DNA of 12,420 bases from an uncultured Lachnospiraceae bacterium. GTDB lineage: Bacteria > Bacillota > Clostridia > Lachnospirales > Lachnospiraceae. Below are positions 509 through 11,281 of the stretch, piece by piece. Positions within the stretch are counted from its first letter, which is position 1. Each line of letters begins with the position of its first letter. The notes beneath the pieces are model-generated. The model made no database searches. It saw only the letters and a list, made by a program, of their open reading frames with translations, and was not told the DNA's origin. The stretch covers positions 1 to 12,420 of the forward strand of contig CADCQU010000198.1 in the NCBI GenBank assembly GCA_902803635.1. Reading direction: 5' to 3'. The translations under genes and the position numbers were made by a program.

Positions 509-1816
509 TCACTTCTCCAGCGCCTTCACGGCCCCGCGCATCCTTCGGACGTCCTCATTTGTCACCCCAAGCGTACTGTAACGAGCCCGCTCGTAAATCT
601 CATGCACCTCCTGCACGGAGGCATTTGCCGAGAAATCGGAATCCCTCACACCGGCCGTCATTTCCAGCTCCGAGGGGGTCTCGGAGGCATGGATGCGCTT
701 CGCGCCCGGTTGCTTCTGGATAAATCGGAGATATAGCCTTCGGATTTTCGCCTCGGGTGTCCGGTCGAAAAAGCCGGGACTCTTTGGCGCCTCCCGCTCC
801 CTCTCTTCCGTCTCCGCCGGGGGCACATAGACCACCACATCATTGTTCTCCTTGCGGGCCAGGCGGAACTCGCGAAGAAAGTTCTTGAAAAAGGACCAGA
901 CAAGCATCGAAAAAATAATAATCCCGATAACAGCAAGCAGCGCGAAGACCACGTTCCAGAAAGCTTCCAGGGCAGGATTGTTTTTCGGTTCCTCAAGATG
1001 AAGTTCCTCAATCAGTTCGGCAATGTTGCAGGTGGATGCCGGCGCGGAGCTATCCGGTGCAAGCTCCTCGGCCGGTAACTCCGGGATAAGCGAGAGTACC
1101 CACTGTATCACCCTCGCAATGAAATCCCGCATCCCGGCAAGGACCTCCGCTCCATGGTCAAAGAAGGCGATGATAGCAAGCACCACGATTGCCAAAAACG
1201 ACATCCCCAGCATTTTCTGCCCATTGGAGCGACGAATCTTCTCATAGGGGACATTGTTGTATCCTTGCGCTTCAAAAAAGGAGCGCACAAGGCTCCTTCG
1301 ATTGTAAAAAAGGAGGCAGAGAATAAGAAGAGCGGCCTCCACGAAGAAGGAGAGCAAACGAAGCTCCACACGTTCAAAGATAAAGCTCATGCAGTAGATA
1401 CAGACAGGATAAATGACGAGCGGGATAACCGGATAGATGCGGCGCGTACCGACAATGCGGCTATTCACCGCCGTCAAGGTTGCCGCAAGACCGATCACAA
1501 TTGTAAACAGGAGGGCAGAGATGTCTGGCCGGGAGCCATTTGCCCCCGGTATGAAAAAAACGACAAGCGCAAGAAGCCCCAAAAGGAGCCCCGCGAGCGC
1601 GAGGAAATAGGCCGCAAAAGCGAAGATACGCCTCTGGACGACCCGTAATCCCACGGCATAGGCCGTCATGAGAAGTCCCGCAACGATGACCTCCGCCCCA
1701 AATGGCCTTTCCGCAAGAAGCAGGACCGGCAGGGCAGTTCCAAGCAGGACGCAGTTGGTGAGGAGACGGATTAGGCCAAGACCATGGTCCTCCTCCGGAA
1801 GTTTTTCTGGAATCAT
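509..1816 (-). CDS. Multi-pass membrane protein with DUF4129-like C-terminal domain
   Basis: This is a 435-residue integral membrane protein. Hydrophobic segments lie at about 15-35, 41-60, 64-90, 99-117, 126-147, 153-171, 203-220 and 285-311, so roughly eight membrane passes. A soluble acidic loop at 245-283 lies between the last two. The tail from about 355 has the pattern of DUF4129 (AKIRRLYLRFIQKQ, then SETPSELE, then a helix with YERARYS), the domain usually found with MoxR/DUF58 genes, often at the end of a transglutaminase membrane protein. No transglutaminase core (Cys-His-Asp) is seen here. The gene starts 23 bases after the DUF58 stop; the ATG at 1816 has an AGGAGG site (complement of 1820-1825). 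It is the last gene of the HAD-MoxR-DUF58 block and is probably the membrane partner of the MoxR chaperone. The function is unknown. The domain call rests on pattern recognition. Confidence 0.82.
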   Translation of the reverse strand: MIPEKLPEEDHGLGLIRLLTNCVLLGTALPVLLLAERPFGAEVIVAGLLMTAYAVGLRVVQRRIFAFAAYFLALAGLLLGLLALVVFFIPGANGSRPDISALLFTIVIGLAATLTAVNSRIVGTRRIYPVIPLVIYPVCIYCMSFIFERVELRLLSFFVEAALLILCLLFYNRRSLVRSFFEAQGYNNVPYEKIRRSNGQKMLGMSFLAIVVLAIIAFFDHGAEVLAGMRDFIARVIQWVLSLIPELPAEELAPDSSAPASTCNIAELIEELHLEEPKNNPALEAFWNVVFALLAVIGIIIFSMLVWSFFKNFLREFRLARKENNDVVVYVPPAETEEREREAPKSPGFFDRTPEAKIRRLYLRFIQKQPGAKRIHASETPSELEMTAGVRDSDFSANASVQEVHEIYERARYSTLGVTNEDVRRMRGAVKALEK

Positions 1817-1839
1817 GCTGCCTCCTTTCTCACGTTAAC

Positions 1840-2994
1840 CTACACCTGCCGTGCCATACGGAAGAAGTTAACACAGGCGGGCATGGGAATGTCCGGCATA
1901 TCCCTTTCCAGCGGAGCAAGCCAGAAAAGACCACCCTGTCGCTCAGCCAGCTGCGCGACGGCCTCGATCAACACTTCCCCCCTCGCCGAGGAGACAAGGA
2001 GATAGGTGACCGCGTTATCATTCTGCCGTTCCGCAATAACGCGAACCACCCCGTCAAAGTTCCGCACGGCTTTCTCGGTATCGATTCGGGCAAGTCCCTC
2101 CGCAATGGAGCGAAGATGTTCCTTGGAGCTTCCGGAAGCGACCGAAATTTCCCCCGTATAGGCCTCCTCCCCCGCGTCCTCCTTCGCCTCCGGCGCGAGA
2201 ATATCCCTCCCGTTGGTCTTGAGCGAGACGGGAAGCTTCTTTTCAATGAGGAGGGCCGCCAGCGAATACGCAAGGCGGATTCCCTCCTCCGGAAGCTCCC
2301 GGTCGAAGCGGATGGCCGGTTGCTCCAGATTGAGCAGGATGCAAATCTCCTGCCCGGCCGTGTAATCCCGAAGATTCACCATCGGCCGGCCATAGCGGGC
2401 AGACGCCTTCTGGTTGATGGCCGACATCGGGTCCGTCGGAGCGTATTCCCGAATCCCGCGAAAAGTAAACACATCCGGATACAGGTATTTTTTCGACAGG
2501 ACATCCCCCAGAAGATGCTCGAACGCCGCAGTGACATCCGGCGCATCCAGAAGTTTGGGAAAGACATAGAGCGAGGTGGCCTGTGGCAAGTATCTGATCT
2601 GCTGGCTGCTGGAGAGCAGTCCAGGCGCAAGGAGCGTGGTGCGAAGGATCTGGTAATACCCCCGCTGCATGCAAGCCACCTCAATGCGGCGTGTCAATTG
2701 CTCGCAGCCCCGGAGGCTGTAGTACTCCACGCAGTTGCTTCGATCCGTAACACTTGCATTTGCATTTCCCTGAATATGCAGGCCCCTTCCCAATTGGAAC
2801 TGTACCTGCAAAAGATGAAGGGACAGGCGTTTGCGGTTGGTCACCACCTCCTCCAGGAAGGTGCTCTCCCCCTCCGTCACCGGGTGGTCGTCAAAGGTAA
2901 ACCGCACGGTCAGGTTCCGATCCCAGAATTTCCGGAAAAGGAGCTGCTGAATAAGCACGATCAAGGCGATCCCTACCGGGATCCATACAATCAT
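1840..2994 (-). CDS. DUF58 domain protein, MoxR-associated
   Basis: The product is 384 residues. It opens with one membrane segment (about 3-22) followed by basic residues. The DUF58 signature is present in the second half: REYAPTDPMSAINQKASARY followed by a strand ending in ILLNLE. DUF58 proteins are von Willebrand-A-like and are encoded next to MoxR ATPases, which are thought to remodel or load metal onto them; their substrates are largely unknown. The start was placed at the ATG at 2994, not at the far upstream end of the open frame (3615), because the upstream extension lies over the MoxR gene and is low-complexity Gly/Arg/Ala. A GGGAGG site sits about 10 bases before this ATG; a TTG one codon earlier (2997) is an alternative. 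It begins 17 bases after the MoxR stop, so co-translation is likely. Confidence 0.88.
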   Translation of the reverse strand: MIVWIPVGIALIVLIQQLLFRKFWDRNLTVRFTFDDHPVTEGESTFLEEVVTNRKRLSLHLLQVQFQLGRGLHIQGNANASVTDRSNCVEYYSLRGCEQLTRRIEVACMQRGYYQILRTTLLAPGLLSSSQQIRYLPQATSLYVFPKLLDAPDVTAAFEHLLGDVLSKKYLYPDVFTFRGIREYAPTDPMSAINQKASARYGRPMVNLRDYTAGQEICILLNLEQPAIRFDRELPEEGIRLAYSLAALLIEKKLPVSLKTNGRDILAPEAKEDAGEEAYTGEISVASGSSKEHLRSIAEGLARIDTEKAVRNFDGVVRVIAERQNDNAVTYLLVSSARGEVLIEAVAQLAERQGGLFWLAPLERDMPDIPMPACVNFFRMARQV

Positions 2995-3011
2995 CAAGGC
3001 GTGGCCCTCCC

Positions 3012-3974
3012 TTAGATTTCCTTCCTCTCCTCCCCGACGAAATTCTCGGTCGGCACGGAGACCGTCAGCAGGATTTTCTCCACCAGTTCCTCGGAGCTGA
3101 CACCGGCACCGAAGCGATGTGCAGGCACGAGGCGATGCGCAAGGACCGGCACCGCGATATCCTTGATATCCTCGGGCACAACAAATGAACGTCCTGCAAG
3201 GAAGGCCATCGCGCGGGCCGCCCGCATGAGCGCGAGGGAAGCGCGGGGGCTGGCTCCGGCGGCCAGCTCCGGAAGCGTACGGGTTGCCAGTACAAGGTCG
3301 GCAATATAGCCCAAAAGCTCCTCCGAGATGGCCACTTTCGCAGCTTCCATGCGAGCTGACAGGAAATCCTCCGCCGAAGCCACCGCCGAAAGCTCCTCCA
3401 GCACGTTGGAGGAAAGGAAGCGGCGAAGCACCTCCACCTCTCCCTCCCGATCCGGAAAGCCCACCGAAAGCTTCATCAAAAAGCGGTCGAGCTGCGCCTC
3501 GGGAAGCGGAAACGTCCCGCTGGTCTCCACCGGGTTCTGTGTCGCCAGAACGAAAAATGGCTCCGGGAGCGTCCGCGTCACGCCATCCGTCGTTACCTGC
3601 CGCTCCTCCATGCACTCCAGAAGGCCGGCCTGCGTCCTTGGTGTCGCACGGTTAATCTCGTCAGCCAGCAGGATCGACGTAAAGACCGGCCCGGGCTGGA
3701 AGACAAATTCCCCCCGGTTCTGCTGCCACACCGAAAGCCCCGTAATATCGGTGGGAAGAAGATCTGGCGTAAACTGAATCCTTCGGAAAGGAACATTTGC
3801 CGACTTTGCCAGGGATTTTGCAAGCATCGTCTTACCGCTGCCGGGGAGATCCTCCAAAAGAACGTGTCCCCCCGCCAGAAGGCTTACCAGCACCAGGCGA
3901 ATTGGCCGTTCCTTGCCCACCAGAACGCGGGCAATATTTTCCTCCACCGCCAACATTTTCTCACGTATAGACAT
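3012..3974 (-). CDS. MoxR family AAA+ ATPase
   Basis: At 320 residues this is the normal length for the family. Visible motifs are Walker A EDLPGSGKT (41-49), Walker B ILLADEINR (101-109), sensor 1 ATQNP (144-148), the arginine region LDRF (162-165) and sensor 2 GASPRASLAL (240-249). The lid domain follows to the C-terminus. MoxR proteins are cytoplasmic ATP-driven chaperones that act on von Willebrand-A or DUF58 partners, and the DUF58 gene follows directly. The ATG at 3974 lies only 6 bases after the stop of the HAD gene, and its AAGGAGG site is formed by the last codons of that gene, so the two are co-expressed. No key residue is missing. The family is certain; the client is unknown. Confidence 0.97.
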   Translation of the reverse strand: MSIREKMLAVEENIARVLVGKERPIRLVLVSLLAGGHVLLEDLPGSGKTMLAKSLAKSANVPFRRIQFTPDLLPTDITGLSVWQQNRGEFVFQPGPVFTSILLADEINRATPRTQAGLLECMEERQVTTDGVTRTLPEPFFVLATQNPVETSGTFPLPEAQLDRFLMKLSVGFPDREGEVEVLRRFLSSNVLEELSAVASAEDFLSARMEAAKVAISEELLGYIADLVLATRTLPELAAGASPRASLALMRAARAMAFLAGRSFVVPEDIKDIAVPVLAHRLVPAHRFGAGVSSEELVEKILLTVSVPTENFVGEERKEI

Positions 3975-3980
3975 GTGCCC

Positions 3981-5003
3981 TTATGCCTCCTTCTGCAGAA
4001 TTTTCCCGATATCGCCGTCCCAGATAATGCGTGGCTGGGTATGCGTTCCCGTGGCCTCGTGCATCGCGGAAAGCCGCCGCTGCATTTCCGTATTGTCATA
4101 CCTGTCCGTATTGAGGAAAATGCCGTCGACGCCGCAGAGGGCGGCCACGCCCATATCAGAGAAAAAATCGTTGCCGATCATGACCGTACGGGACGGCAAC
4201 AGGGAATGGCGGTGCATCAGAGCTGCAAGGAAGCTCGGATCCGGCTTTTTTACCTGTTGCTCCGAAGAAATAAAAATATCGTCAAAATACCAGTAAAGGC
4301 CAGCCTCCTCGATTTCCGGCACCGTAAAGATACTCTGTGCGTTGGAAAGGAGGTATACCCGTTTGCCGGCTTCTTTCAGTTCCCGAAGCGTGGCCTCCGT
4401 ATGCGGATACGGGGCAAAACGCTGCCGCGAAGCCGTGCGGAAGAAGTTGGCGACCGCCGTCGTCCAAATCTCCCACCGCTCCTCGCTCCAGCTTTCCGTC
4501 CCCGCCGCGCCTTCCGACGAAAGACGGGCAGCCTCCGACCAGGGGTCCCTCCGGAAACCGCGAAGGGCCTCCGCTGCCGCCACCTCCCTTGTGAGCGTCA
4601 TCGCGCGGCGTCCCGCAGCCGTCTCCTCCATCTTTCGGCCCCTGACATTTGCCGTGCCAAAGAAGGCCGCCGTCTGCCGCCCGCTCCGGCCATCGGAAAC
4701 AGGCGCCGCAAGGATGGCCGTCCTCTTTTTGGGGGCCTCTTCCAGGAGCGCACGGAAAACGCGCCCCTGCTCCACCTCCGGGTACGTGCGCTGCGAAGCC
4801 TTGGCAAGCGCCTCCTCCTGCTGCTTTATCAGGCGGTTGTAAGCCTCGTGAATTTCCCTGCCGCTGTAAATGGCCCCGTAGCAGCCGTAAAACCCTGCCA
4901 GCTCCTCCCAGAGCCGGTCGTCGTACTCGTTGGTGTGGATATCCACCAGAGTCCCGTAAAAATCAAACACAAAATTATCATATGCCGCAAGCGCGCTCTT
5001 CAT
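3981..5003 (-). CDS. HAD-superfamily hydrolase with a long internal insertion
   Basis: This 340-residue protein has all four HAD motifs: motif I DFYGTLVD (14-21, nucleophile D14), motif II LLSNA (218-222), motif III lysine in VKKPDP (251-256) and motif IV MIGNDFFSD (275-283). Tyr stands where many HAD phosphatases have the second Asp of motif I, as in the haloacid dehalogenase branch, so a phosphatase role is not certain. HAD proteins of this layout are usually 220-240 residues. Here about 85 residues (roughly 90-175), rich in Ala, Arg, Glu and Thr, are inserted in the cap region, just before a normal-looking EIWTTAVANFF helix. The insertion carries one CATTTGCC octamer (4646-4653). The start is the ATG at 5003, with GAGGAGG six bases upstream; an in-frame TTG at 5018 overlaps that site and was rejected. 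It is the first gene of the MoxR/DUF58/DUF4129 block. The substrate is unknown. Confidence 0.88.
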   Translation of the reverse strand: MKSALAAYDNFVFDFYGTLVDIHTNEYDDRLWEELAGFYGCYGAIYSGREIHEAYNRLIKQQEEALAKASQRTYPEVEQGRVFRALLEEAPKKRTAILAAPVSDGRSGRQTAAFFGTANVRGRKMEETAAGRRAMTLTREVAAAEALRGFRRDPWSEAARLSSEGAAGTESWSEERWEIWTTAVANFFRTASRQRFAPYPHTEATLRELKEAGKRVYLLSNAQSIFTVPEIEEAGLYWYFDDIFISSEQQVKKPDPSFLAALMHRHSLLPSRTVMIGNDFFSDMGVAALCGVDGIFLNTDRYDNTEMQRRLSAMHEATGTHTQPRIIWDGDIGKILQKEA

Positions 5004-5020
5004 CCGGAACCTCCTCAATA

Positions 5021-5061
5021 TATAAAAATATTACCGGCGGCAGCTTTGGGCATACCGCCGG
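5021..5061 (-). terminator. Intrinsic terminator after the lipoprotein gene
   Basis: On the minus strand the arm CCGGCGG (complement of 5055-5061) pairs perfectly with CCGCCGG (complement of 5034-5040) across a 14-base loop. The T-rich run TAATATTTTTATA (complement of 5021-5033) follows. It begins 20 bases after the lipoprotein stop. The end of the T-tract is only about 5 bases from the ribosome binding site of the HAD gene (5011-5016), which leaves no room for a promoter between them. Confidence 0.75.
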
Positions 5062-5080
5062 CAGGTACATTTGTCAAACC

Positions 5081-5455
5081 TCAGGCTTTCTTGAACGTCA
5101 TCTGTTCGTTTTCAATCTTGATGGTAATCATTCCATCGGAATACGTATAAGCAATCGATTCTCCGTCGGCTGTAAGCTTACCATCGCTCCAGGTAAGGTC
5201 CTCCGGATCATCTCCGGAGATGTACAGCGTCGCAGTTCCGTCCGAACGAAGCTCCAGGTAGGAATCATCCATCCCGAGGTCCTGCAGCATCTTTTGGGTG
5301 ATCGTCGTTTTCTCCGACTTGACTTCCTCCAGCATATACTTGCCTACCTGGTCCTTCGGAACATCCGCCTCCTTCTTCCCGCCGCACGCCGTCATGGCCA
5401 GAAGCATTACGGCAAAAAGGAGAAGAACCGTCACCTTCCGCATTGTTTTTCCCAT
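5081..5455 (-). CDS. Small predicted lipoprotein with lipocalin-like beta repeat
   Basis: The product is 124 residues. A classical lipoprotein signal is present: MGKTMRKV, a hydrophobic stretch to about 20, then LAMTAC with the lipidated cysteine at 24, followed by GGKKEAD as a linker. The mature part alternates short strands: GKYMLEEV, YLELRSDGTATLYIS, LTWSDGKLTADGESIAYTY and MITIKIENEQMTFKK. That is the pattern of small Firmicute lipoproteins with a DUF4854/lipocalin-like fold; the exact family is not certain. It should be anchored on the outer face of the cytoplasmic membrane. The ATG at 5455 has AAGGAGG six bases upstream, an extended -10 promoter lies about 40 bases before it and a terminator follows, so it looks like a single-gene unit. 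The function is unknown; no enzymatic motif is seen. Confidence 0.85.
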   Translation of the reverse strand: MGKTMRKVTVLLLFAVMLLAMTACGGKKEADVPKDQVGKYMLEEVKSEKTTITQKMLQDLGMDDSYLELRSDGTATLYISGDDPEDLTWSDGKLTADGESIAYTYSDGMITIKIENEQMTFKKA

Positions 5456-5495
5456 AACATCCTCCTTCTATAAAAATAAGAAGCTATACAAAGAA

Positions 5496-5504
5496 AGTAT
5501 ACCA
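5496..5504 (-). promoter_or_regulatory. Extended -10 promoter of the lipoprotein gene
   Basis: On the minus strand the sequence reads TGGTATACT, that is TG-n-TATACT (-10 hexamer complement of 5496-5501). The -35 position at 17 bases (complement of 5519-5524, TTCCAT) is poor, as is often the case with extended -10 promoters. It lies between the transporter stop and the lipoprotein ATG. Confidence 0.5.
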
Positions 5505-5549
5505 CATATCCACGAAACATGGAATTATTTTTATAAAAAATTGATATTC

Positions 5550-6737
5550 TCAGTCCGCCGTATCCGAGTCCAGCGTGACGAAGACATCAAAGTCCGGATA
5601 ACGCGCGGCAATCTCCCTCCAGACATGGCGGTGCACCGCCTGGCGATCCGGCGCGTCAAAACCAACAACCATGTCAAAGGTAATTCTTCGATCCTCAAAA
5701 TCGATGAAGACACCGTGTACCTGCTGTACATAATCATGGGCGAGCGCAATGCGGCTCAGCTCCGTACGCATTTGCGCGGCCCGGCCGCCTCCGACATTTC
5801 TCGAATATATGCCCACCGTCGTCAGCAGGAAGCCACATTTTTCGTAGACCTCCTTCTGAATTTGACGGGTAAGCTCGTCGATGCGATGGGCCGTCATTGT
5901 CTCCGGCACCTCGATGTGGATAGAACCCAGAGAATAGTCCGGTCCATAGTTGTGAATCAAAAGGTCATAAGCCCCCAAAACATCCGGCACCTGCCGCACC
6001 GTCGCACGGATGTTTTTCGAAAGCTCCGGATCCGGACGCTTCCCAAGGATGTCGCTCATGGTATCCATCAGCATCCCGAAACCGGACTTTATAATGATGA
6101 GGGAAATGACCGCTCCAAGAAAGGCCTCCAGACTAATACCGGTAAGGAGGAAAATGACAGCCGCGACAAGGGTCGCCGCCGAGATGATCGCGTCCATCAG
6201 GGCATCGGTACCGGAAGCGACCAGGGCATCCGCCCGCACCCGCTTCCCGGTTTTCTTGACATACGTGCCCAGGACAATCTTCGTCACTACCGCGATGCCG
6301 ACAAGCACGAGCGTCAGGACTGAGTAGTCCGGCTCCTGTGGCTCAAAAATTTTCTTCACGGATTCCACGAGGGCCGTGACACCTGCATAGAGAATGATGA
6401 CCGCGATTACCATCGTGGCGATATACTCGACCCTCCGGTAGCCCAGCGGATGGCTCTTATCCGGCGGCCGCGAGGCAATCTTCGCCCCCAGGATCGTGAT
6501 CACCGAGGAGAGCGCGTCGGTGAGGTTGTTCACCGCATCGAGCACGATCGCGATCGAGCCTGAAAGCAAACCAACGGCCGCCTTCCCGGCCGACAAAACC
6601 AGATTGACCAGAATTCCAATCACGCTGGTCCGCACGATGACCCTCTCCCGGGCTTTCGCCGCCTCCTCCGCCTCGTTCCGCAGCCTCCAGGAATCCTGCT
6701 CCGTCGTCGTAGCTTTTTCCTTCGTCTTCTCTCCCAT
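5550..6737 (-). CDS. Cation diffusion facilitator family transporter with doubled C-terminal domain
   Basis: The 395-residue product is a proton-coupled divalent metal efflux protein of the CDF family. After a charged N-terminus (1-32) there are about six membrane segments up to residue 225. The family motif in segment 2 reads LDAVNNLTDALSS (66-78), and a PDKSHPLGYRRVEY loop follows. Segment 5 has SGTDALMD (175-182). In the usual zinc-type pattern (H/DxxxD in segments 2 and 5) the first position of segment 2 is Asn70 here, so the metal cannot be assigned. The C-terminal part (about 235-395) is twice the usual length and reads as two ferredoxin-like domains, one ending near TTVGIYSRN and the second containing VHGVFIDFEDRRITFDMVV. 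The chosen ATG at 6737 has an AGGGGG site six bases upstream; an ATG two codons earlier abuts that site. An AT-rich dyad overlaps its promoter, which fits control by a metal sensor. Confidence 0.92.
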   Translation of the reverse strand: MGEKTKEKATTTEQDSWRLRNEAEEAAKARERVIVRTSVIGILVNLVLSAGKAAVGLLSGSIAIVLDAVNNLTDALSSVITILGAKIASRPPDKSHPLGYRRVEYIATMVIAVIILYAGVTALVESVKKIFEPQEPDYSVLTLVLVGIAVVTKIVLGTYVKKTGKRVRADALVASGTDALMDAIISAATLVAAVIFLLTGISLEAFLGAVISLIIIKSGFGMLMDTMSDILGKRPDPELSKNIRATVRQVPDVLGAYDLLIHNYGPDYSLGSIHIEVPETMTAHRIDELTRQIQKEVYEKCGFLLTTVGIYSRNVGGGRAAQMRTELSRIALAHDYVQQVHGVFIDFEDRRITFDMVVGFDAPDRQAVHRHVWREIAARYPDFDVFVTLDSDTAD

Positions 6738-6787
6738 GCGCATCCCCCTTTTTGGCAAATGCCCTGAACATGAAATTTTCTTCTATA

Positions 6788-6805
6788 ACTATATCACAAT
6801 ATAGT
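6788..6805 (-). promoter_or_regulatory. Extended -10 promoter of the CDF gene overlapped by a dyad operator candidate
   Basis: On the minus strand TGATATAGT (complement of 6788-6796) is an extended -10 element. The same bases form half of a perfect inverted repeat, ACTATAT-CACA-ATATAGT (6788-6805, 7 + 4 + 7). The -35 position (complement of 6811-6816, TTTTCT) is weak. A dyad directly over the -10 of a metal exporter is where a repressor such as a metal sensor would bind; the regulator itself is not in the window and the site matches no box that I can name with confidence. Confidence 0.5.
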
Positions 6806-6856
6806 CTATAAGAAAATGCAAATCATCAGCGAAGACAAAAAGATGGCGCTGCCCCG

Positions 6857-6882
6857 TTACAGTTCAGGAAGCTGAACTGTAA
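6857..6882. repeat. Perfect 11-base inverted repeat with 4-base loop
   Basis: TTACAGTTCAG (6857-6867) and CTGAACTGTAA (6872-6882) are exact complements around GAAG. No T-run follows on either strand, so it is not an ordinary terminator. It lies about 70-90 bases upstream of the map promoter and 40-65 bases upstream of the transporter -35 position. That fits an operator for a dimeric regulator shared by the two genes, or an RNA hairpin if a transcript crosses it. Confidence 0.6.
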
Positions 6883-6945
6883 TACGCAGGCCTTGCCCAA
6901 CCCGCCAACCTTTTTATTTTTTTCATAGCGCGTTCCGAAAAAATA

Positions 6946-6954
6946 TGGTATAGT
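6946..6954 (+). promoter_or_regulatory. Extended -10 promoter of map
   Basis: TGGTATAGT is an extended -10 (TG-n-TATAGT, hexamer 6949-6954). No good -35 is seen 16-18 bases upstream. The predicted start of transcription is near 6961, giving a leader of about 90 bases to the map ATG. Confidence 0.5.
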
Positions 6955-7050
6955 AGCATTTTGAGTAACTTTTTAAATAATTGGAAGAGCGCTTGGAGGC
7001 ATTTGCCGCAGGCAAGCTGGGACGACGTGTAAAGAGAAGGAAGGAAAACC

Positions 7051-7929
7051 ATGTTATTTAAGAAATTTGACCGCAATGCCCCCTGCTGGTGCGGGAGCGG
7101 GCGAAAGTACAAAACCTGCCACGCTGCATTTGACGATAAAATTTTATCCTATGCCCGCGCCGGGCACACCGTACCCACGCGAGACCTCATCAAATCCGAA
7201 AAAGACATCGAGGGTATCAAGGAAAGCGCGAAGATCAACATGGCCGTCCTCGACGAGGTGGGCGACAAGATCCACGCCGGCATGTCCACGGAAGAAATCA
7301 ATGATATCGTGAACGACGTGACGCACAAGATGGGCGGCATTCCGGCCGACCTTGGCTATGAAGGTTTCCCGAAGAGCGTCTGCACCTCGGTCAATGACGA
7401 GGTTTGCCACGGAATCCCCTCGCGGGACGTCATCCTAAAGGACGGCGACATCATCAATGTGGACTGCTCCACGATCCTGAACGGCTATTTCTCGGATTCC
7501 TCCCGCATGTTCCTCATCGGCGATGTCTCCCCGGAGAAGCGACGACTCGTCGAGGTCACCCGCGAGTGCATGCTGGCCGGTCTGGAAAAGGTCATTCCCT
7601 GGACCTTCCTCGGCGACATGGGCAGCGCGGTCCATCACCACGCCATGAAAAATGGCTACTCCGTCGTGCGTGAAATTGGCGGCCACGGCTGCGGGAACGC
7701 CTTCCACGAGGAGCCCTGGGTCAGCTACGTCTCCAAGCCCGGCACGGAAATGCTCATGGTGCCCGGCATGGTCTTCACCATCGAGCCCATGATCAACATG
7801 GGCGGTGCCCGCATTTTTACGGACGAGGAGAACGGCTGGACCATCTACACGGCGGACGGCAAACCCTCCGCCCAGTGGGAGATCGAGGTTCTCGTCACCG
7901 AGACCGGCCACGAGGTCCTGTGCTGGTAA
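7051..7929 (+). CDS. map: Methionine aminopeptidase type I with N-terminal SEC-C zinc motif
   Basis: The 292-residue enzyme removes the initiator methionine from new proteins in the cytoplasm. Residues 8-24 hold a SEC-C-type zinc knuckle, RNAPCWCGSGRKYKTCH (CxCx8CH), as in SecA tails and in many Firmicute MAPs, thought to help ribosome or protein contact. The catalytic domain follows with H120 in CHGIP and all five metal ligands: D138 (NVDCS), D149 (FSDSS), H212 (GHGCG), E245 (FTIEPM) and E277 (QWEIEV). Length and order match type Ia enzymes with the zinc extension. The ATG at 7051 follows GGAAGG at normal spacing; there is no competing start because the zinc motif begins at residue 8. It has its own promoter and is followed after 40 bases by the CoA transferase, probably in the same transcript. 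It is an isolated map gene, not in the common adk-map-infA context. Confidence 0.96.
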   Translation: MLFKKFDRNAPCWCGSGRKYKTCHAAFDDKILSYARAGHTVPTRDLIKSEKDIEGIKESAKINMAVLDEVGDKIHAGMSTEEINDIVNDVTHKMGGIPADLGYEGFPKSVCTSVNDEVCHGIPSRDVILKDGDIINVDCSTILNGYFSDSSRMFLIGDVSPEKRRLVEVTRECMLAGLEKVIPWTFLGDMGSAVHHHAMKNGYSVVREIGGHGCGNAFHEEPWVSYVSKPGTEMLMVPGMVFTIEPMINMGGARIFTDEENGWTIYTADGKPSAQWEIEVLVTETGHEVLCW

Positions 7930-7969
7930 TGCTCTCTTCGAAAAATAACTGTTAGAAAGGAAGCTTTCT

Positions 7970-9481
7970 ATGTTTGAAATCATGTCCGCCGACGAGGCCG
8001 CGACTCGCATCCACGACGGAGACTGCATCTGTGTTAACTCCTTTGTCGGCATTGAAAATCCAGTAGAACTCCACGAGGCCATCCACCGCCGTTTCCTGTC
8101 GGAGGGTTCTCCGAAAAACCTGACCATTGTCTCCAGCGCGGGCTTTGGCGTCTTTGACGAAAATCGTTCCGCGGAAGGCTATATCCGCGACGGCGCGGTC
8201 TCTCGCATCATTTGTGGACATTTCGGCGCGATGCTCAGCACCAAGCGACTCATTTTAGAAGACCGTTTTGAGGCCTACAATCTGCCCTTGGGATGCATTT
8301 CCCACGCTATCCGTGCACAGGCAAGCGGCGTCCCCGGGGCGCTCTCCAAGGTCGGCCTCGACATCTTCGTCGACCCCAGACAGGAGGGCCCCGGCATCAA
8401 CCATCTCTCCACGTCCACGGAGTTTGTCAAGAACGTCGAGGTGGACGGCGAGGAGTTCCTGTACTACAAGCTCCCGAAGCTCACCGTGGCTCTTATCAAG
8501 GGCACGGCGGCCGACCACAGAGGCAATATATCCTTTGACGATATGTTTATGTCCGGAGACGCACTCTCCATTTGTCAGGCAGTGCGGGCAAATGGCGGCA
8601 AAGTGATTGTGCAGGTGGACCGCCTAGTGGCGACGCCGGCCCGTCCGCGTAACACCATCATCCCCGGCTGCCTCGTGGATATCATCGTCGTCACCGAGCC
8701 GGAGGAGCGGCCGGTCGCCTACCGTGCCCTCACCGGCGGCTTCGAAATCCCCTATGAGGAGTGGAAATCCTGGTACGAGATGATTGACGCCCTGAGCACA
8801 ACCCGTCCGCAGTCGAACCCGGTTTTCAACATTATCGGAAAGCGGGCCTCCCGGGAGCTCCACGAGGATGATATTGTCAATATCGGTATCGGCATCCCGG
8901 AGACCGTCACAAAATACGCGCGGAAGAGCGGGATGCTCGCCAAGATCACGATGACCGTCGAGTCCGGCGGTATCGGCGGTTTCCCGGCCTCCGGAAAGGT
9001 CTTCGGCGCGATGATCGGGGCGGCCTCCGTCTACGACATGGCAAACCAGTTCGACCTCTATAACAACGGCGGCCTCGATATTTGCTTTATGGGTGCCTTC
9101 GAGGTCGACCGCTATGGCAATGTCAATGCACATAAATCTCCGTCCATGTATCCTGGAATCGGCGGTTTTGCCAACATCACCGCCAAGACGCCCACCGTGG
9201 TCTTCTGCCTTACCTTCAACACGAAGGGCCTCTCCGCCTCGCGGAAGGGCGATGTGGTCACCATCCTTGAAAATGGGGCAATCCCGAAGTTCGTGGAGAA
9301 GGTGGGGAGCATCAGCTTCTCCGCCAAGCGCGCGCGGGAAAATGGCCAGCGCGTACTCTACATCACCGAGCGCTGCGTCTTTGGCCTTGGTAAAAATGGG
9401 CTGAAGCTCCTCGAGATCTACCCTGGCATCGATAGGCAGAGGGACATCCTCGACCTCCTGCCCTTCCCGGTGGAGGAATAA
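7970..9481 (+). CDS. Fused-subunit acyl-CoA:carboxylate CoA-transferase (propionate/acetate CoA-transferase family)
   Basis: The 503-residue protein joins the alpha and beta halves of a family I CoA transferase. The alpha half covers about 1-270, with GVPGALSKVGLDIFVDPRQEG at 119-140 and GTAADHRGNISFDD at 178-191. The beta half begins near 284 and carries the catalytic glutamate E331 in MTVESGGIGG (328-337), which forms the glutamyl-CoA intermediate. IGIGIPETV (305-313) and the GNVNAH motif (383-388) also fit. Relatives such as Pct of Clostridium and YdiF move CoA between acetate and propionate, lactate, butyrate or acetoacetate; the exact substrate cannot be read here. In a fermenting anaerobe it would act at the end of short-chain acid formation. 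The start has an AAAGGAAG site. It is 40 bases behind map, with no terminator between them. It contains one octamer (8587-8594). I see no clear hairpin plus T-run between its stop and the thi promoter. Confidence 0.92.
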   Translation: MFEIMSADEAATRIHDGDCICVNSFVGIENPVELHEAIHRRFLSEGSPKNLTIVSSAGFGVFDENRSAEGYIRDGAVSRIICGHFGAMLSTKRLILEDRFEAYNLPLGCISHAIRAQASGVPGALSKVGLDIFVDPRQEGPGINHLSTSTEFVKNVEVDGEEFLYYKLPKLTVALIKGTAADHRGNISFDDMFMSGDALSICQAVRANGGKVIVQVDRLVATPARPRNTIIPGCLVDIIVVTEPEERPVAYRALTGGFEIPYEEWKSWYEMIDALSTTRPQSNPVFNIIGKRASRELHEDDIVNIGIGIPETVTKYARKSGMLAKITMTVESGGIGGFPASGKVFGAMIGAASVYDMANQFDLYNNGGLDICFMGAFEVDRYGNVNAHKSPSMYPGIGGFANITAKTPTVVFCLTFNTKGLSASRKGDVVTILENGAIPKFVEKVGSISFSAKRARENGQRVLYITERCVFGLGKNGLKLLEIYPGIDRQRDILDLLPFPVEE

Positions 9482-9494
9482 AAAAATTTTCTCC

Positions 9495-9523
9495 TTGCCC
9501 CTTCCCTCTTCTGGTGCTATAAT
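9495..9523 (+). promoter_or_regulatory. Promoter of the thiamine operon
   Basis: A -35 TTGCCC (9495-9500), a 17-base spacer and a consensus -10 TATAAT (9518-9523) preceded by TGC (extended -10) lie 14 bases after the CoA-transferase stop. Transcription should start around 9530, immediately before the riboswitch. Confidence 0.8.
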
Positions 9524-9534
9524 ACGAACAAACA

Positions 9535-9613
9535 GGGGAGCTTGTGTAGCAGGCTGAGAGGAAGCAAAAGCTTCGACCCTTTACCTGATTCGGGTAATGC
9601 CGACGTAGGGAGA
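9535..9613 (+). promoter_or_regulatory. TPP riboswitch (THI box) aptamer
   Basis: The conserved TPP aptamer cores are present in order: GGGGAGC (9535-9541), CTGAGA (9554-9559), ACCCTTTACCTGATT (9576-9590) and GGGTAATGCCGACGTAGGGA (9592-9611). Visible helices are the P2 pairing GGG (9536-9538) with CCC (9577-9579), an optional P3a hairpin GAAGC-AAAA-GCTTC (9561-9574) and P5 TCGG/CCGA (9590-9593 with 9600-9603). It binds thiamine pyrophosphate. Two hairpins with T-runs follow before thiN, so it most likely stops transcription of the thi genes when TPP is plentiful. The P3a strand AAAGCT (9567-9572) is complementary to AGCTTT (9634-9639) in the first terminator, a possible antiterminator pairing that is my inference. 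Confidence 0.96.
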
Positions 9614-9630
9614 GGATATGGATGATTTTG

Positions 9631-9666
9631 GAGAGCTTTCCTGTTTTTGGAGTGCTCTCTTTTTTT
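9631..9666 (+). terminator. Riboswitch-linked intrinsic terminator 1
   Basis: GAGAGC (9631-9636) pairs with GCTCTC (9654-9659). After one mismatch the stem continues TTCC/GGAG (9638-9641 with 9649-9652, one G-T pair), with a seven-base loop. Seven Ts (9660-9666) follow. It begins 18 bases after the aptamer and is the probable expression platform. Confidence 0.85.
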
Positions 9667-9682
9667 GCTGCTTTTTGGCGAG

Positions 9683-9717
9683 GCAGCCACAGGAACTTTT
9701 TGTTGGCTGCTTTTGTT
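9683..9717 (+). terminator. Second hairpin with T-run in the thi leader
   Basis: GCAGCCA (9683-9689) and TGGCTGC (9704-9710) form a perfect 7-base stem with a 14-base loop, followed by TTTTGTT (9711-9717). It ends just before the thiN ribosome site (AGAGG, 9723-9727). GCTGC at 9667-9671, directly after the first terminator, can pair with GCAGC (9683-9687), giving an alternative fold that would break this hairpin. It may be a backup terminator or a second control point. Confidence 0.6.
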
Positions 9718-9734
9718 GCTACAGAGGTAAACAA

Positions 9735-10457
9735 ATGCATGGTTTATGCTTGCTGATTTCGGGCGGGGATTTTTCTCCCCTTCCCAAGGAACTGTACGAG
9801 GCGGACTACGTGATTGCCTGCGACAAGGGCTGGCAGTACGCCGAAAGGCTTGGACTGTCCCCGGATCTTATCCTCGGCGACTTCGACTCCGTGCCTCCCC
9901 CCATGACCTCCGTCCCTGTGGAGCACTTCCCCACGCGAAAGGACGACACCGACACGATGCTGGCCGCGCGCCGGGCGCTGGCGATGGGCTACCGGGACAT
10001 CGCAGTCGCCTGCGCTTTCGGCGGACGTTTCGACCATGCTCTGGCAAACCTCCAGACAGCCGCCTTTTTAGCCTCCCATGGGGCGAGGACGAGATTGGTC
10101 GGGACGGACACTGACGCGCTCGCGTTTGCCGGGGCCAACGCTGACGCGCTCGCATTTGATAGGACGGACATCGACGTACGCACATTTGCCGGGGCCAACA
10201 CTGACGCGCCCGCATTTGTCAGGACGGAGCGGTTCCCAAGACGGGACGGCTGGTCCCTCTCCGTATTCGCGCTCTCGGACATTTGCCAGGGCGTCTCCAT
10301 CCGCGGCACGGAGTATGTGTGCACGGACGAGACCCTGACAAACACTTTCCCGATCGGCATCAGCAACGCCTGGGCCTCCGAGGAGGCGGAAATCTCCGTA
10401 AGGAGCGGAATTCTACTGGTTATGCATTCAAAATTGCAGAAAGGAGAACATATATGA
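9735..10457 (+). CDS. thiN: Thiamine pyrophosphokinase with a tandem-repeat insertion
   Basis: The 240-residue enzyme transfers pyrophosphate from ATP to thiamine to give TPP. The catalytic domain has LISGGDF (7-13), ACDKGW (28-33), LGDFDS (47-52), PTRKDDTDT (66-74) and GGRFDH (96-101). The C-terminal thiamine-binding domain has LSVFALSD (175-182), GVSIRGTEY (186-194) and GISNAW (208-213). Relatives have about 210 residues with a short strand-turn-strand between the domains. Here residues 124-163 are four 10-residue repeats in that place. The start is the ATG at 9735, with AGAGG seven bases upstream; the frame is open back to an ATG at 9618, but that extension would cover both leader hairpins and adds a Cys/Phe-rich run not seen in the family. 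It overlaps thiM by ATGA and is controlled by the TPP riboswitch. All catalytic motifs are intact, so it is probably active despite the insertion. Confidence 0.93.
   Translation: MHGLCLLISGGDFSPLPKELYEADYVIACDKGWQYAERLGLSPDLILGDFDSVPPPMTSVPVEHFPTRKDDTDTMLAARRALAMGYRDIAVACAFGGRFDHALANLQTAAFLASHGARTRLVGTDTDALAFAGANADALAFDRTDIDVRTFAGANTDAPAFVRTERFPRRDGWSLSVFALSDICQGVSIRGTEYVCTDETLTNTFPIGISNAWASEEAEISVRSGILLVMHSKLQKGEHI
10104..10223 (+). repeat. Four 30-base tandem repeats inside thiN
   Basis: The units are 10104-10133, 10134-10163, 10164-10193 and 10194-10223. They encode TDTDALAFAG, ANADALAFDR, TDIDVRTFAG and ANTDAPAFVR. Units 1 and 3 share the start ACGGACA and the end TTTGCCGGG; units 2 and 4 share GCCAAC and CGCATTTG. 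The array is therefore also two 60-base units, with a partial start (ACGGA) of a fifth 30-base unit after it. At the same place in each unit lies CGTTTGCC, CATTTGAT, CATTTGCC or CATTTGTC. The reading frame is kept. Confidence 0.92.
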
Positions 10458-11281
10458 TTGATTTTGAACGCATTTTGTCAAATGTCCGCGAAAGGACACC
10501 TCTGGTGCACAACATCACCAACTATGTCACGGTCAACGACTGTGCCAACATCCTTCTGGCCTGCGGCGGTTCGCCCATCATGTCCGATGACGCCGCCGAG
10601 GTGGAGGACATCACATCCATCTGCGGCGGTCTGAACATCAACATCGGCACACTGAACCAGAACACCATCCCGTCCATGTTCCTGGCCGGGAAACGCGCCA
10701 ACGCACTGAGCCACCCGGTGCTGCTCGACCCCGTCGGCGCCGGCGCCTCGAAGCTGCGCACCGAGACGGCCGCAAAGCTCCTTGAAGAGGTGAAATTTGC
10801 CGTGATCCGGGGCAATATCTCCGAGATCAAGGCCCTTGCCCAGGGTACTAACAGCACGAAGGGCGTAGACGCAAGCGAGGAGGATGCGGCAAATGCCTCT
10901 AACCTCGACAGTGTCGTTGCCTTTGCCAGAGCCCTCTCCGAGAAAACCGGCGCGATCATCGCCATCACCGGGGCCACGGACATCATCGTGGACAAGGCAA
11001 ATGCCTGCACGATCACCAACGGACATCCGATGATGAGCAAGATCACCGGCACCGGCTGCATGCTCTCGGCCATGACGACCGCCTTTGTGACAGCAAATCC
11101 GGAGCAGCCCTTCGAGGCCGTCTGCACCGCCGTCATCGCCATGGGGCTTTGCGGGGAGCTTGCGCAGCGGCGGCTCACGGAGCTCGATGGAAACAGCAGC
11201 TACCGGAACTATATCATTGACGCGGTCTATCGTCTGACTGCGGAGCAGCTCGTGGAAGGTGCAAAATATGAGATGCGATAA
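10454..11281 (+). CDS. thiM: Hydroxyethylthiazole kinase
   Basis: The 275-residue protein is a ribokinase-like ATP-dependent kinase that phosphorylates 4-methyl-5-(2-hydroxyethyl)thiazole for thiamine salvage. Motifs are TPLVHNITNYVTVNDCAN (15-32), GGSPIM (38-43), LDPVGAGAS (91-99), RGNISEI (119-125), GVDA (137-140) and the anion-hole/active-site loop ITGTGCMLSA (197-206) with Cys202. The length is close to the family norm. The start is the ATG at 10454, with AAGGAG seven bases before it, overlapping the thiN stop as ATGA; the open frame upstream to 10283 lies inside thiN and was not used. It overlaps thiE by 14 bases. Two octamers (10888-10895 and 10996-11003) lie in loop-coding parts, AANAS and KANAC, each read as Ala-Asn with GCA-AAT codons. 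Confidence 0.97.
   Translation: MIDFERILSNVRERTPLVHNITNYVTVNDCANILLACGGSPIMSDDAAEVEDITSICGGLNINIGTLNQNTIPSMFLAGKRANALSHPVLLDPVGAGASKLRTETAAKLLEEVKFAVIRGNISEIKALAQGTNSTKGVDASEEDAANASNLDSVVAFARALSEKTGAIIAITGATDIIVDKANACTITNGHPMMSKITGTGCMLSAMTTAFVTANPEQPFEAVCTAVIAMGLCGELAQRRLTELDGNSSYRNYIIDAVYRLTAEQLVEGAKYEMR

Follow-up and report, generated by a model that had tools for sequence, protein, structure and literature searches.

The octamer CATTTGCC is iterated genome-wide in an uncultured Lachnospiraceae bacterium (genome G000), and we hold it to be an evenly balanced proposition, judged from sequence, that it is a strand-symmetric DNA recognition word working like a DNA uptake sequence. Among the kinds of iterated motif listed in a preliminary description of this DNA, the uptake-sequence type fits best.

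Abundance of the octamer

The window analyzed is a stretch of 12,420 nucleotides of G000. As had been reported, it carries 11 exact copies of CATTTGCC over both strands (Table 1), compared to a mean of 0.58 and a maximum of 4 in 200 dinucleotide shuffles, and CATTTGCC was its top octamer under an order-2 Markov model. The 2.416-Mb genome holds 2177 copies (1137 forward and 1040 reverse), or 0.90 per kb, whereas the reversed control word occurs 49 times (30 and 19). The shuffles and the reversed word rule out chance or base composition as the source. The count against a Markov model that the preliminary description had called for was far above expectation: 320,880 sampled bases of G000, 9,575 of them N, held 317 copies, whereas an order-3 model predicted 30.3. 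The proposal of a genome-wide iterated signal is thus upheld, as the count is not near the Markov level and the use of Ala-Asn codon pairs does not account for it (see below).

Five of the 11 window copies extend to the longer form GGCATTTGCC, and the consensus is approximately gGCATTTG[C/t]C[R]; GCATTTGCCR alone has 784 copies in G000. The flanks of 192 copies were nearly uninformative beyond 2 bases on the 5' side and 1 base on the 3' side, which excludes CATTTGCC as a piece of a longer repeat.

The full G000 sample comprised 348,151 bases, with 336 copies in its 338,576 non-N bases. Contigs L163, L173, L175, and L180 (9,575 bases) read N throughout and are included in both the 320,880 and the 348,151 totals. 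The density was 1.07 per kb in the first 20 contigs, 12 of which (C1 to C17) had been chosen from contigs with CATTTGCC matches, 0.96 per kb in the unselected, non-N contigs C30 to C49, and 0.70 per kb in C50 and C51.

Table 1. Copies of the octamer in the window
Feature	Position	Strand	Context
CATTTGCC copy	622..629	+	DUF4129 gene, antisense; coding strand GCA-AAT (Ala-Asn)
CATTTGCC copy	1537..1544	+	DUF4129 gene, antisense; GCA-AAT
CATTTGCC copy	3794..3801	+	MoxR-type AAA gene, antisense; GCA-AAT
CATTTGCC copy	4646..4653	+	HAD hydrolase gene, antisense; GCA-AAT
CATTTGCC copy	6754..6761	-	cation-efflux (CDF) gene leader
CATTTGCC copy	7000..7007	+	M24 peptidase (map) gene leader
CATTTGCC copy	8587..8594	-	CoA-transferase gene, antisense; GCA-AAT
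CATTTGCC copy	10183..10190	+	thiamin pyrophosphokinase gene, sense (Thr-Phe-Ala); within repetitive stretch
CATTTGCC copy	10280..10287	+	thiamin pyrophosphokinase gene, sense (Asp-Ile-Cys-Gln)
CATTTGCC copy	10888..10895	-	thiM, antisense; GCA-AAT
CATTTGCC copy	10996..11003	-	thiM, antisense; GCA-AAT

Both leaders of the divergent CDF/map pair carry a copy, as had been described. Seven genes had been said to read the word as GCA-AAT; seven copies are indeed so read, but they lie in only five genes (DUF4129 twice, MoxR, HAD, CoA transferase, and thiM twice). At the CoA-transferase site, the exact octamer was found in none of the 80 orthologues from named loci.

Codon use, polarity, and other explanations

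The GCA-AAT reading of 7 of the 9 coding copies in the window would fit a codon-pair or protein-level effect, in which Ala-Asn is favored and written GCA-AAT in the absence of any DNA signal. However, 207 of 395 Ala-Asn pairs in G000 are written in this way, where codon use predicts 19.7, and the word remained in large excess over synonymous-codon shuffles of the coding DNA, with 111 versus 11.1 copies in the sense direction (10.0-fold) and 178 versus 13.6 in the antisense direction (13.1-fold), and strict intergenic DNA held 15 copies versus 0.95 expected. The two thiN (thiamin pyrophosphokinase) copies are read in other frames (ACA-TTT-GCC and GAC-ATT-TGC). In G447, another member of the Lachnospiraceae, CATTTGCC is the top octamer, yet GCA-AAT is not favored (39 versus 43.4). 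The codon-pair explanation, a check proposed at the outset, fails on all of these counts; Ala-Asn pairs as the sole cause are refuted, and we give the effect next to no credence. The excess over shuffles on both strands, together with the intergenic excess, indicates a signal at the level of the DNA that is present on both strands. Coding sequence from 80 named loci, 1.05 Mb in all, was not enriched over shuffles (17 versus 22.1 and 26 versus 17.3).

An over-represented octamer could also be a polar signal oriented with replication, of the Chi or KOPS type, and Chi is itself an over-represented octamer. CATTTGCC resembles Chi sites in this respect but is without strand polarity. The sense and antisense enrichments are nearly equal, so that there is no orientation bias beyond coding constraint, and only 162 of 298 neighboring copies in the sample share an orientation; the two genome-wide strand counts, from unordered contigs, are likewise close. 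Strand bias was thus looked for in enrichment and neighbor orientation and not found, and a polar site is rejected as very improbable. Spacing was near random (coefficient of variation [CV], 1.05 versus 1.03). There was no preference for noncoding DNA (0.78 versus 1.04 per kb), some of which is missed coding sequence, since genes were called by a codon-score script (coding fraction, 0.81). Neither position within genes nor the codon typicality of the host genes showed a clear trend. Mismatches were tolerated in a graded manner: one-mismatch variants were enriched mainly at positions 6 to 8, by up to 5.8-fold, and the central TTT tolerated almost none (at most 1.5-fold).

Near-random placement on both strands, in coding and intergenic DNA, would also be seen if an abundant protein of the chromosome, such as a nucleoid organizer or recombination factor, bound the word and selection acted on it genome-wide, and the graded mismatch tolerance suggests protein-DNA affinity. 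We regard this explanation as unlikely, as the 37 species of the genus differ from 49 to 2177 copies, and we know of no chromosome-organizing word at about 1 per kb with such differences between species. Quite unlikely, too, is an origin like that of HIP1, in which methylation coupled to mismatch repair makes and maintains the word and lineage words follow the methyltransferase present. As outlined in a portion of PMC4390886, cyanobacterial HIP1 is a highly iterated octamer with alternates in some lineages and one-base deviations at the edges, features that CATTTGCC shares in being highly iterated with lineage-specific alternates. Dyad symmetry is present in the arms (GGCA/TGCC) of the extended word GGCATTTGCC, and strong methyltransferase matches occur in motif-bearing G001 (PF01555 and PF02384) and G447 (PF02384). 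HIPs, however, are palindromes tied to methyltransferases, whereas CATTTGCC is not self-complementary outside the arms of GGCATTTGCC, and its graded tolerance at positions 6 to 8 seems unlike an exact methylase site. In a search of 15 genomes limited to the N6/N4 families PF01555 and PF02384, G000 had one DNA enzyme, located beside a BsuBI/PstI-type endonuclease, and none recognized as matching the word; G004 had none over the cutoff, and G381 had none. The target of the BsuBI/PstI-type system, which we take to be CTGCAG, differs from CATTTGCC and is not depleted (108 versus 83), so CATTTGCC is rejected as that target. A HIP-type or methylase role is therefore weakened.

Comparison with known uptake sequences

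The uptake-sequence reading draws on likeness to known systems. Copy number is within the hundreds to thousands, at about 1 per kb, characteristic of uptake sequences, and a section of PMC5397411 quotes the same density for Haemophilus and Neisseria. The uptake sequences (DUS) of Neisseriaceae are described in parts of PMC3630211 and PMC12616744 as a short word with thousands of copies and dialects that keep an inner core. CATTTGCC is similar in being a short word with thousands of copies and in the presence of pilus and ComEC genes in G000, and words in its relatives suggest possible dialects (see below). It differs in its unrelated sequence, in its host (Bacillota), in being known here from sequence alone, and in that close pairs are not terminators. 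Inverted-repeat pairs were not frequent as terminators: opposite-orientation neighbors less than 45 bp apart numbered nine in the sample, and all nine were inside called genes. One such pair (L176) is near the end of its gene. Pasteurellaceae uptake sequences (USS), of which one orientation is more common in reading frames according to an excerpt of PMC2346458, are similar in copy density and in this orientation difference. In contrast, a profile of 14 bases flanking CATTTGCC showed no AT-rich tract, and the word has no preference for noncoding DNA. The near-random spacing of the copies also speaks against an uptake sequence.

Somewhat more tentatively, we propose that Lachnospiraceae have their own self-DNA recognition for natural transformation, which arose independently of that in the Gram-negative families Neisseriaceae and Pasteurellaceae. 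Its species dialects would center on a CATT core (CATTTGCC, CATTTGTC, and CATTGNCC), its reader would be the type IV pilus, here in a cell of Gram-positive type, and Bacillota would thereby gain their first uptake sequence. In the uptake-sequence reading of G000 itself, CATTTGCC in extracellular DNA would be bound by a receptor at the cell surface, probably one of the minor pilins of the type IV pilus. The pilus would then be retracted by PilT, and ComEC would import one strand. Recombination of self-tagged DNA may then spread and maintain the word through biased uptake.

A passage of PMC12616744 (2025) states that specific self-DNA uptake is known only in Neisseriaceae and Pasteurellaceae. 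The part of PMC5397411 that covers a screen of Veillonella parvula (Bacillota) reports no word of at least 10 bp with at least 100 copies, in contrast to the count of GCATTTGCCR in G000. Among the papers listed as containing CATTTGCC, none had such an iterated signal in its title or abstract opening, and the matches listed in further literature searches showed no report of one in Clostridia. If the proposal is correct, this uptake tag would be new for Bacillota, and a gut family would join the two known ones as an independent third, showing that such tags can arise with Gram-positive-type envelopes. Gene exchange among uncultured gut bacteria could then be followed by sequence, and strains resistant to genetic work could be transformed with the help of a practical tag. 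Should CATTTGCC serve methylation or the chromosome instead, the signal would still be unusually strong, and no report of it came up among the matches listed.

Pilus and competence genes

The type IV pilus locus of G000 comprises pilB, pilT, pilC, pilD, pilM, and pilin-like genes, and the genome also has a ComEC gene with an uninterrupted frame of 806 codons that matches PF03772 over positions 1 to 269 of 270. The same genome thus holds both systems expected with an uptake sequence; the pilus part was missing from motif-bearing G381, where T4P-type PilC and PilT were looked for and neither was found. The G000 contig carrying the pilus locus is motif poor (7 versus 18.4 copies). PilT was present in all three of the motif-richest species of the genus, compared to 13 of 37 species overall (post hoc chance of 0.037, calculated by hand). 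Across Lachnospiraceae, PilT over the cutoff was not associated with motif richness, being found in 10 of 14 motif-rich and 14 of 20 motif-poor genomes in sets chosen by eye. The degenerate word CATT..CC was more strongly raised in congeners without T4P-type PilC (G005, 1.82-fold; G013, 1.76-fold) than in some congeners with it (G022, 1.27-fold; G001, 1.26-fold), indicating that CATT..CC does not follow the pilus. This result, the PilT distribution across the family, the lack of T4P-type PilC and PilT in G381, the motif-poor pilus contig, and the pilus-bearing congeners without CATTTGCC excess (see below) all count against the uptake reading.

Related words in other Lachnospiraceae

We compared G000 with congeners (G001, G004, G005, G013, G022, and G027) and with other Lachnospiraceae (G381, G447, and G520), some of which are also enriched. 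In pilus-bearing G027 and G022, there was no CATTTGCC excess (3 versus 2.0 and 1 versus 0.8 in 37 to 38 kb), and signals for a dialect octamer in these and other congeners were too weak to call in 12 to 39 kb of coding DNA. Octamer peaks in loci L051 and L070 were confined to one strand, in runs resembling coding repeats. CATTTGCC is the enriched word in G000, G004, and G447. G381 contains 425 copies of it and is enriched in CATTTGTC (18 versus 2.3), G001 is enriched in CATTTGCA (12 versus 1.2), and one genus prefers CATTGNCC over CATTTGCC, with 27 versus 2.6 sense and 27 versus 4.7 antisense copies in G520. These words suggest dialects around CATT, with the shared inner core partly selected, since G447, G381, and G520 were chosen for richness in the G000 word.

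Orthologues were compared for 38 of 235 G000 genes (67 with any match) against 552,081 bases of G004. G000 insertions relative to G004 held no motifs, in only 387 nucleotides. The octamer was retained at orthologous sites: 8 of 10 sites of G004 were exact in G000, compared to 1.82 expected (P = 4e-5; control words, 706 of 3711).

Iteration of the octamer in the window and genome

The preliminary description had claimed that CATTTGCC is over-represented in the window and possibly iterated throughout the genome, and both claims held. The two strands of the window carry 11 copies, compared with 0.58 in 200 shuffles, and the word ranks first among its octamers. The genome of which the window is contig C198 (G000; 2,415,941 bases in 411 contigs, 88.65% complete) holds 2177 copies (1137 + 1040), compared with 49 of the control, the same word reversed. 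Contigs consisting entirely of N occur in the sequences analyzed, both from this genome (L163, L173, L175, and L180) and from congeners (L122, L126, L129, L132, and L140).

In the called genes of the G000 sample, CATTTGCC occurred 111 times sense and 178 times antisense, with 11.1 and 13.6 expected from synonymous-codon shuffles; the control occurred 4 times in each orientation (3.8 and 1.8 expected). There was no enrichment in the named pool, which comprises 1.05 Mb of coding sequence drawn from 80 named loci (17 versus 22.1 and 26 versus 17.3). GCA-AAT encoded 207 of the 395 Ala-Asn pairs in G000, where codon use predicts 19.7, and 123 of the 1013 in the named pool, where it predicts 98.7; the pair itself stood at 1.18 and 0.92 of expectation, respectively. 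Strict intergenic DNA of G000 (22,330 bases) contained 15 copies versus 0.95 under an order-2 model and no copy of the control. Beyond gGCATTTGCCr, the flanks hold little information. An origin solely in protein sequence, codon use, or a repeat is ruled out by the synonymous shuffles, the intergenic copies, and the uninformative flanks. At the DNA level, CATTTGCC forms a strong signal on both strands throughout the genome, and some sister lineages have related words.

Spacing was almost random (coefficient of variation, 1.05 versus 1.03 simulated), with a mild surplus of pairs less than 100 bp apart (47 versus 32.3; SD, 4.9), 33 of which had the same orientation. Adjacent copies were co-oriented in 162 of 298 cases. 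Among 43 sequences, the contig with the type IV pilus locus (L193) had the fewest copies for its length (7 versus 18.4; p 0.002, uncorrected for the 43 tests), and the 6.4-kb pilus contig of the congener G004 had zero.

Orthologous sites and tolerated mismatches

We compared 38 gene pairs of G000 and G004 (41.4 kb aligned, 77% nucleotide identity). Of 10 G004 sites, 8 were exact in G000 (p 4e-5), where 1.82 would be expected given the genes and frames involved; the figure for control words was 706 of 3711. These few sites suggest that the word is retained in G000. In the other direction, 8 of 39 G000 sites were exact in G004 (5.63 expected; p 0.19). The differences fell mostly at positions 2 and 5, the third codon positions in the GCA-AAT reading, so the most plausible source of the excess in G000, in this two-species comparison of few sites, is silent-site gain; the alternative is loss in G004. 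Codons at motif sites were conserved like others (66 of 138 versus 6458 of 13,505 identical). At the CoA-transferase site, none of 80 named orthologues had the exact octamer; 29 different words were found there, with GCAAAT in 5 orthologues.

After exact copies were masked, enriched one-mismatch forms were concentrated at positions 6 to 8 (G to T, 3.1x; C7 to T, 5.8x; C7 to A, 3.7x; C8 to A, 4.9x). Enrichment was weak at position 1 (2.4x and 1.8x), and mismatches in the central TTT were barely enriched (≤1.5x). Mutational decay should scatter more broadly, and the bias thus looks like the tolerance of a putative binding protein. CATTTTCC, the G-to-T form, may in part reflect a habit of the family at large, since it was raised in the named pool too (38 versus 19.6 and 93 versus 51.4).

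The word and its variants in relatives

In a search of G000 and 36 other species of the genus, the congeners G001 and G004 had 871 and 751 copies, and the remaining 34 species had 49 to 365. Among 392 genomes of the order, two species that share another genus stood out relative to size: G447, of 1.9 Mb, with 695 copies and G381, of 2.5 Mb, with 425. The counts in G241 (524; control, 240) and G318 (568; control, 217) came from larger genomes, of 7.7 and 8.8 Mb, respectively. Across 397 genomes of the family, which is probably Lachnospiraceae, GCATTTGCCR was most frequent in G000 (784; control, 10), followed by G447 (199), G764 (164), G520 (162), G381 (139), G723 (121), G607 (120 in 7.4 Mb), G613 (114), G549 (114 in 4.9 Mb), G748 (109 in 6.9 Mb), and G121 (103); most had about 10 to 15 per Mb, as judged by eye.

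Over synonymous shuffles, CATTTGCC was the top octamer in G004 (135 versus 17.4) and G447 (52 versus 7.7); it was not raised in 37 to 38 kb of the congeners G027 (3 versus 2.0) and G022 (1 versus 0.8). G001 favors CATTTGCA (12 versus 1.2), G381 favors CATTTGTC (18 versus 2.3), and G520 favors CATTTTCC (22 versus 6.1), CATTGCCC (20 versus 2.5), and CATTGACC (19 versus 2.7), the last two combining as CATTGNCC (27 versus 2.6 sense and 27 versus 4.7 antisense); G520, G447, and G381 were chosen for richness in the G000 word, so the common core is partly selected. CATTGNCC is a different iterated word in another genus of the family, with 55 copies on both strands of 75.7 kb of G520 (L251 to L254). 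The CATT..CC ratio over 84 groups had a median of 1.2 (control, 0.86), and raised ratios were seen both with and without a pilus.

Pilus genes and comparison with uptake words

Pilus and uptake genes of G000
Feature	Location	Content
Type IV pilus locus	C50 (L193)	pilB, pilT, pilC, pilin-like gene, pilD, pilM
comEC	C204	uninterrupted 806-codon frame

The pilT product matches TIGR01420 (E 1.9e-126). We read the two genes after pilM as pilN and pilO, the putative pilO having a T2SSM match under its cutoff; further pilin-like genes lie upstream. These genes are compatible with an uptake model in which the word would be bound via the pilus and the DNA imported via ComEC. ComEC matches were found in 40 of 45 genomes examined. 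PilT was over the cutoff in 13 of 37 genomes of the genus, the three motif-richest among them. In the family, it passed in 10 of the 14 genomes rich in the motif and in 14 of the 20 poor in it; in the motif-bearing G381 the pilus is absent. The pilus thus fits the model yet is no predictor of CATTTGCC.

Among known kinds, the closest likeness of CATTTGCC is to the DNA uptake words DUS and USS, which a 2025 paper describes as known only from Neisseriaceae and Pasteurellaceae (PMC12616744). However, no terminator pairs of CATTTGCC were found, the occurrence of the pilus does not follow that of the word, and uptake and a receptor are putative. We therefore describe CATTTGCC as resembling DUS/USS most, without filing it as a member.

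Methyltransferases and other repeats

Searches with PF01555 and PF02384 in 15 genomes yielded one genuine DNA methyltransferase in G000, adjoining a BsuBI/PstI-type endonuclease; the other match in G000 looks, from its sequence, like an RNA methyltransferase. The motif-bearing G001 had several strong matches and G447 had two; G004 had none over the cutoff, and G381 had none. On L250 (C329 of G000), the BsuBI/PstI-type restriction endonuclease lies next to an Eco57I-like methyltransferase, and CTGCAG is not depleted. CTCGAG (29 versus 117) and GGGCCC (23 versus 102) were strongly avoided in the G000 sample (338,576 non-N bases), perhaps reflecting past restriction pressure. The 2.4 Mb of G000 contained a single tyrosine-recombinase match (PF00589) and one subthreshold rve match, a scarcity possibly due to loss in binning.

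An interspersed repeat around TGTCATTCTGAGCGAAGCGAAGAATCCCG had 14 exact copies in the G000 sample (L081 to L100, L161 to L180, and the window), where CTCAGAATGA, of the same repeat, occurred 44 times; a related word, GTCATCCTGA, occurred 27 times in 52 kb of G001. At positions 10077 to 10245 of the window, a repetitive stretch (LAFAGANADALAF...) containing one copy of CATTTGCC separates the catalytic and B1-binding domains in the thiamin pyrophosphokinase gene.
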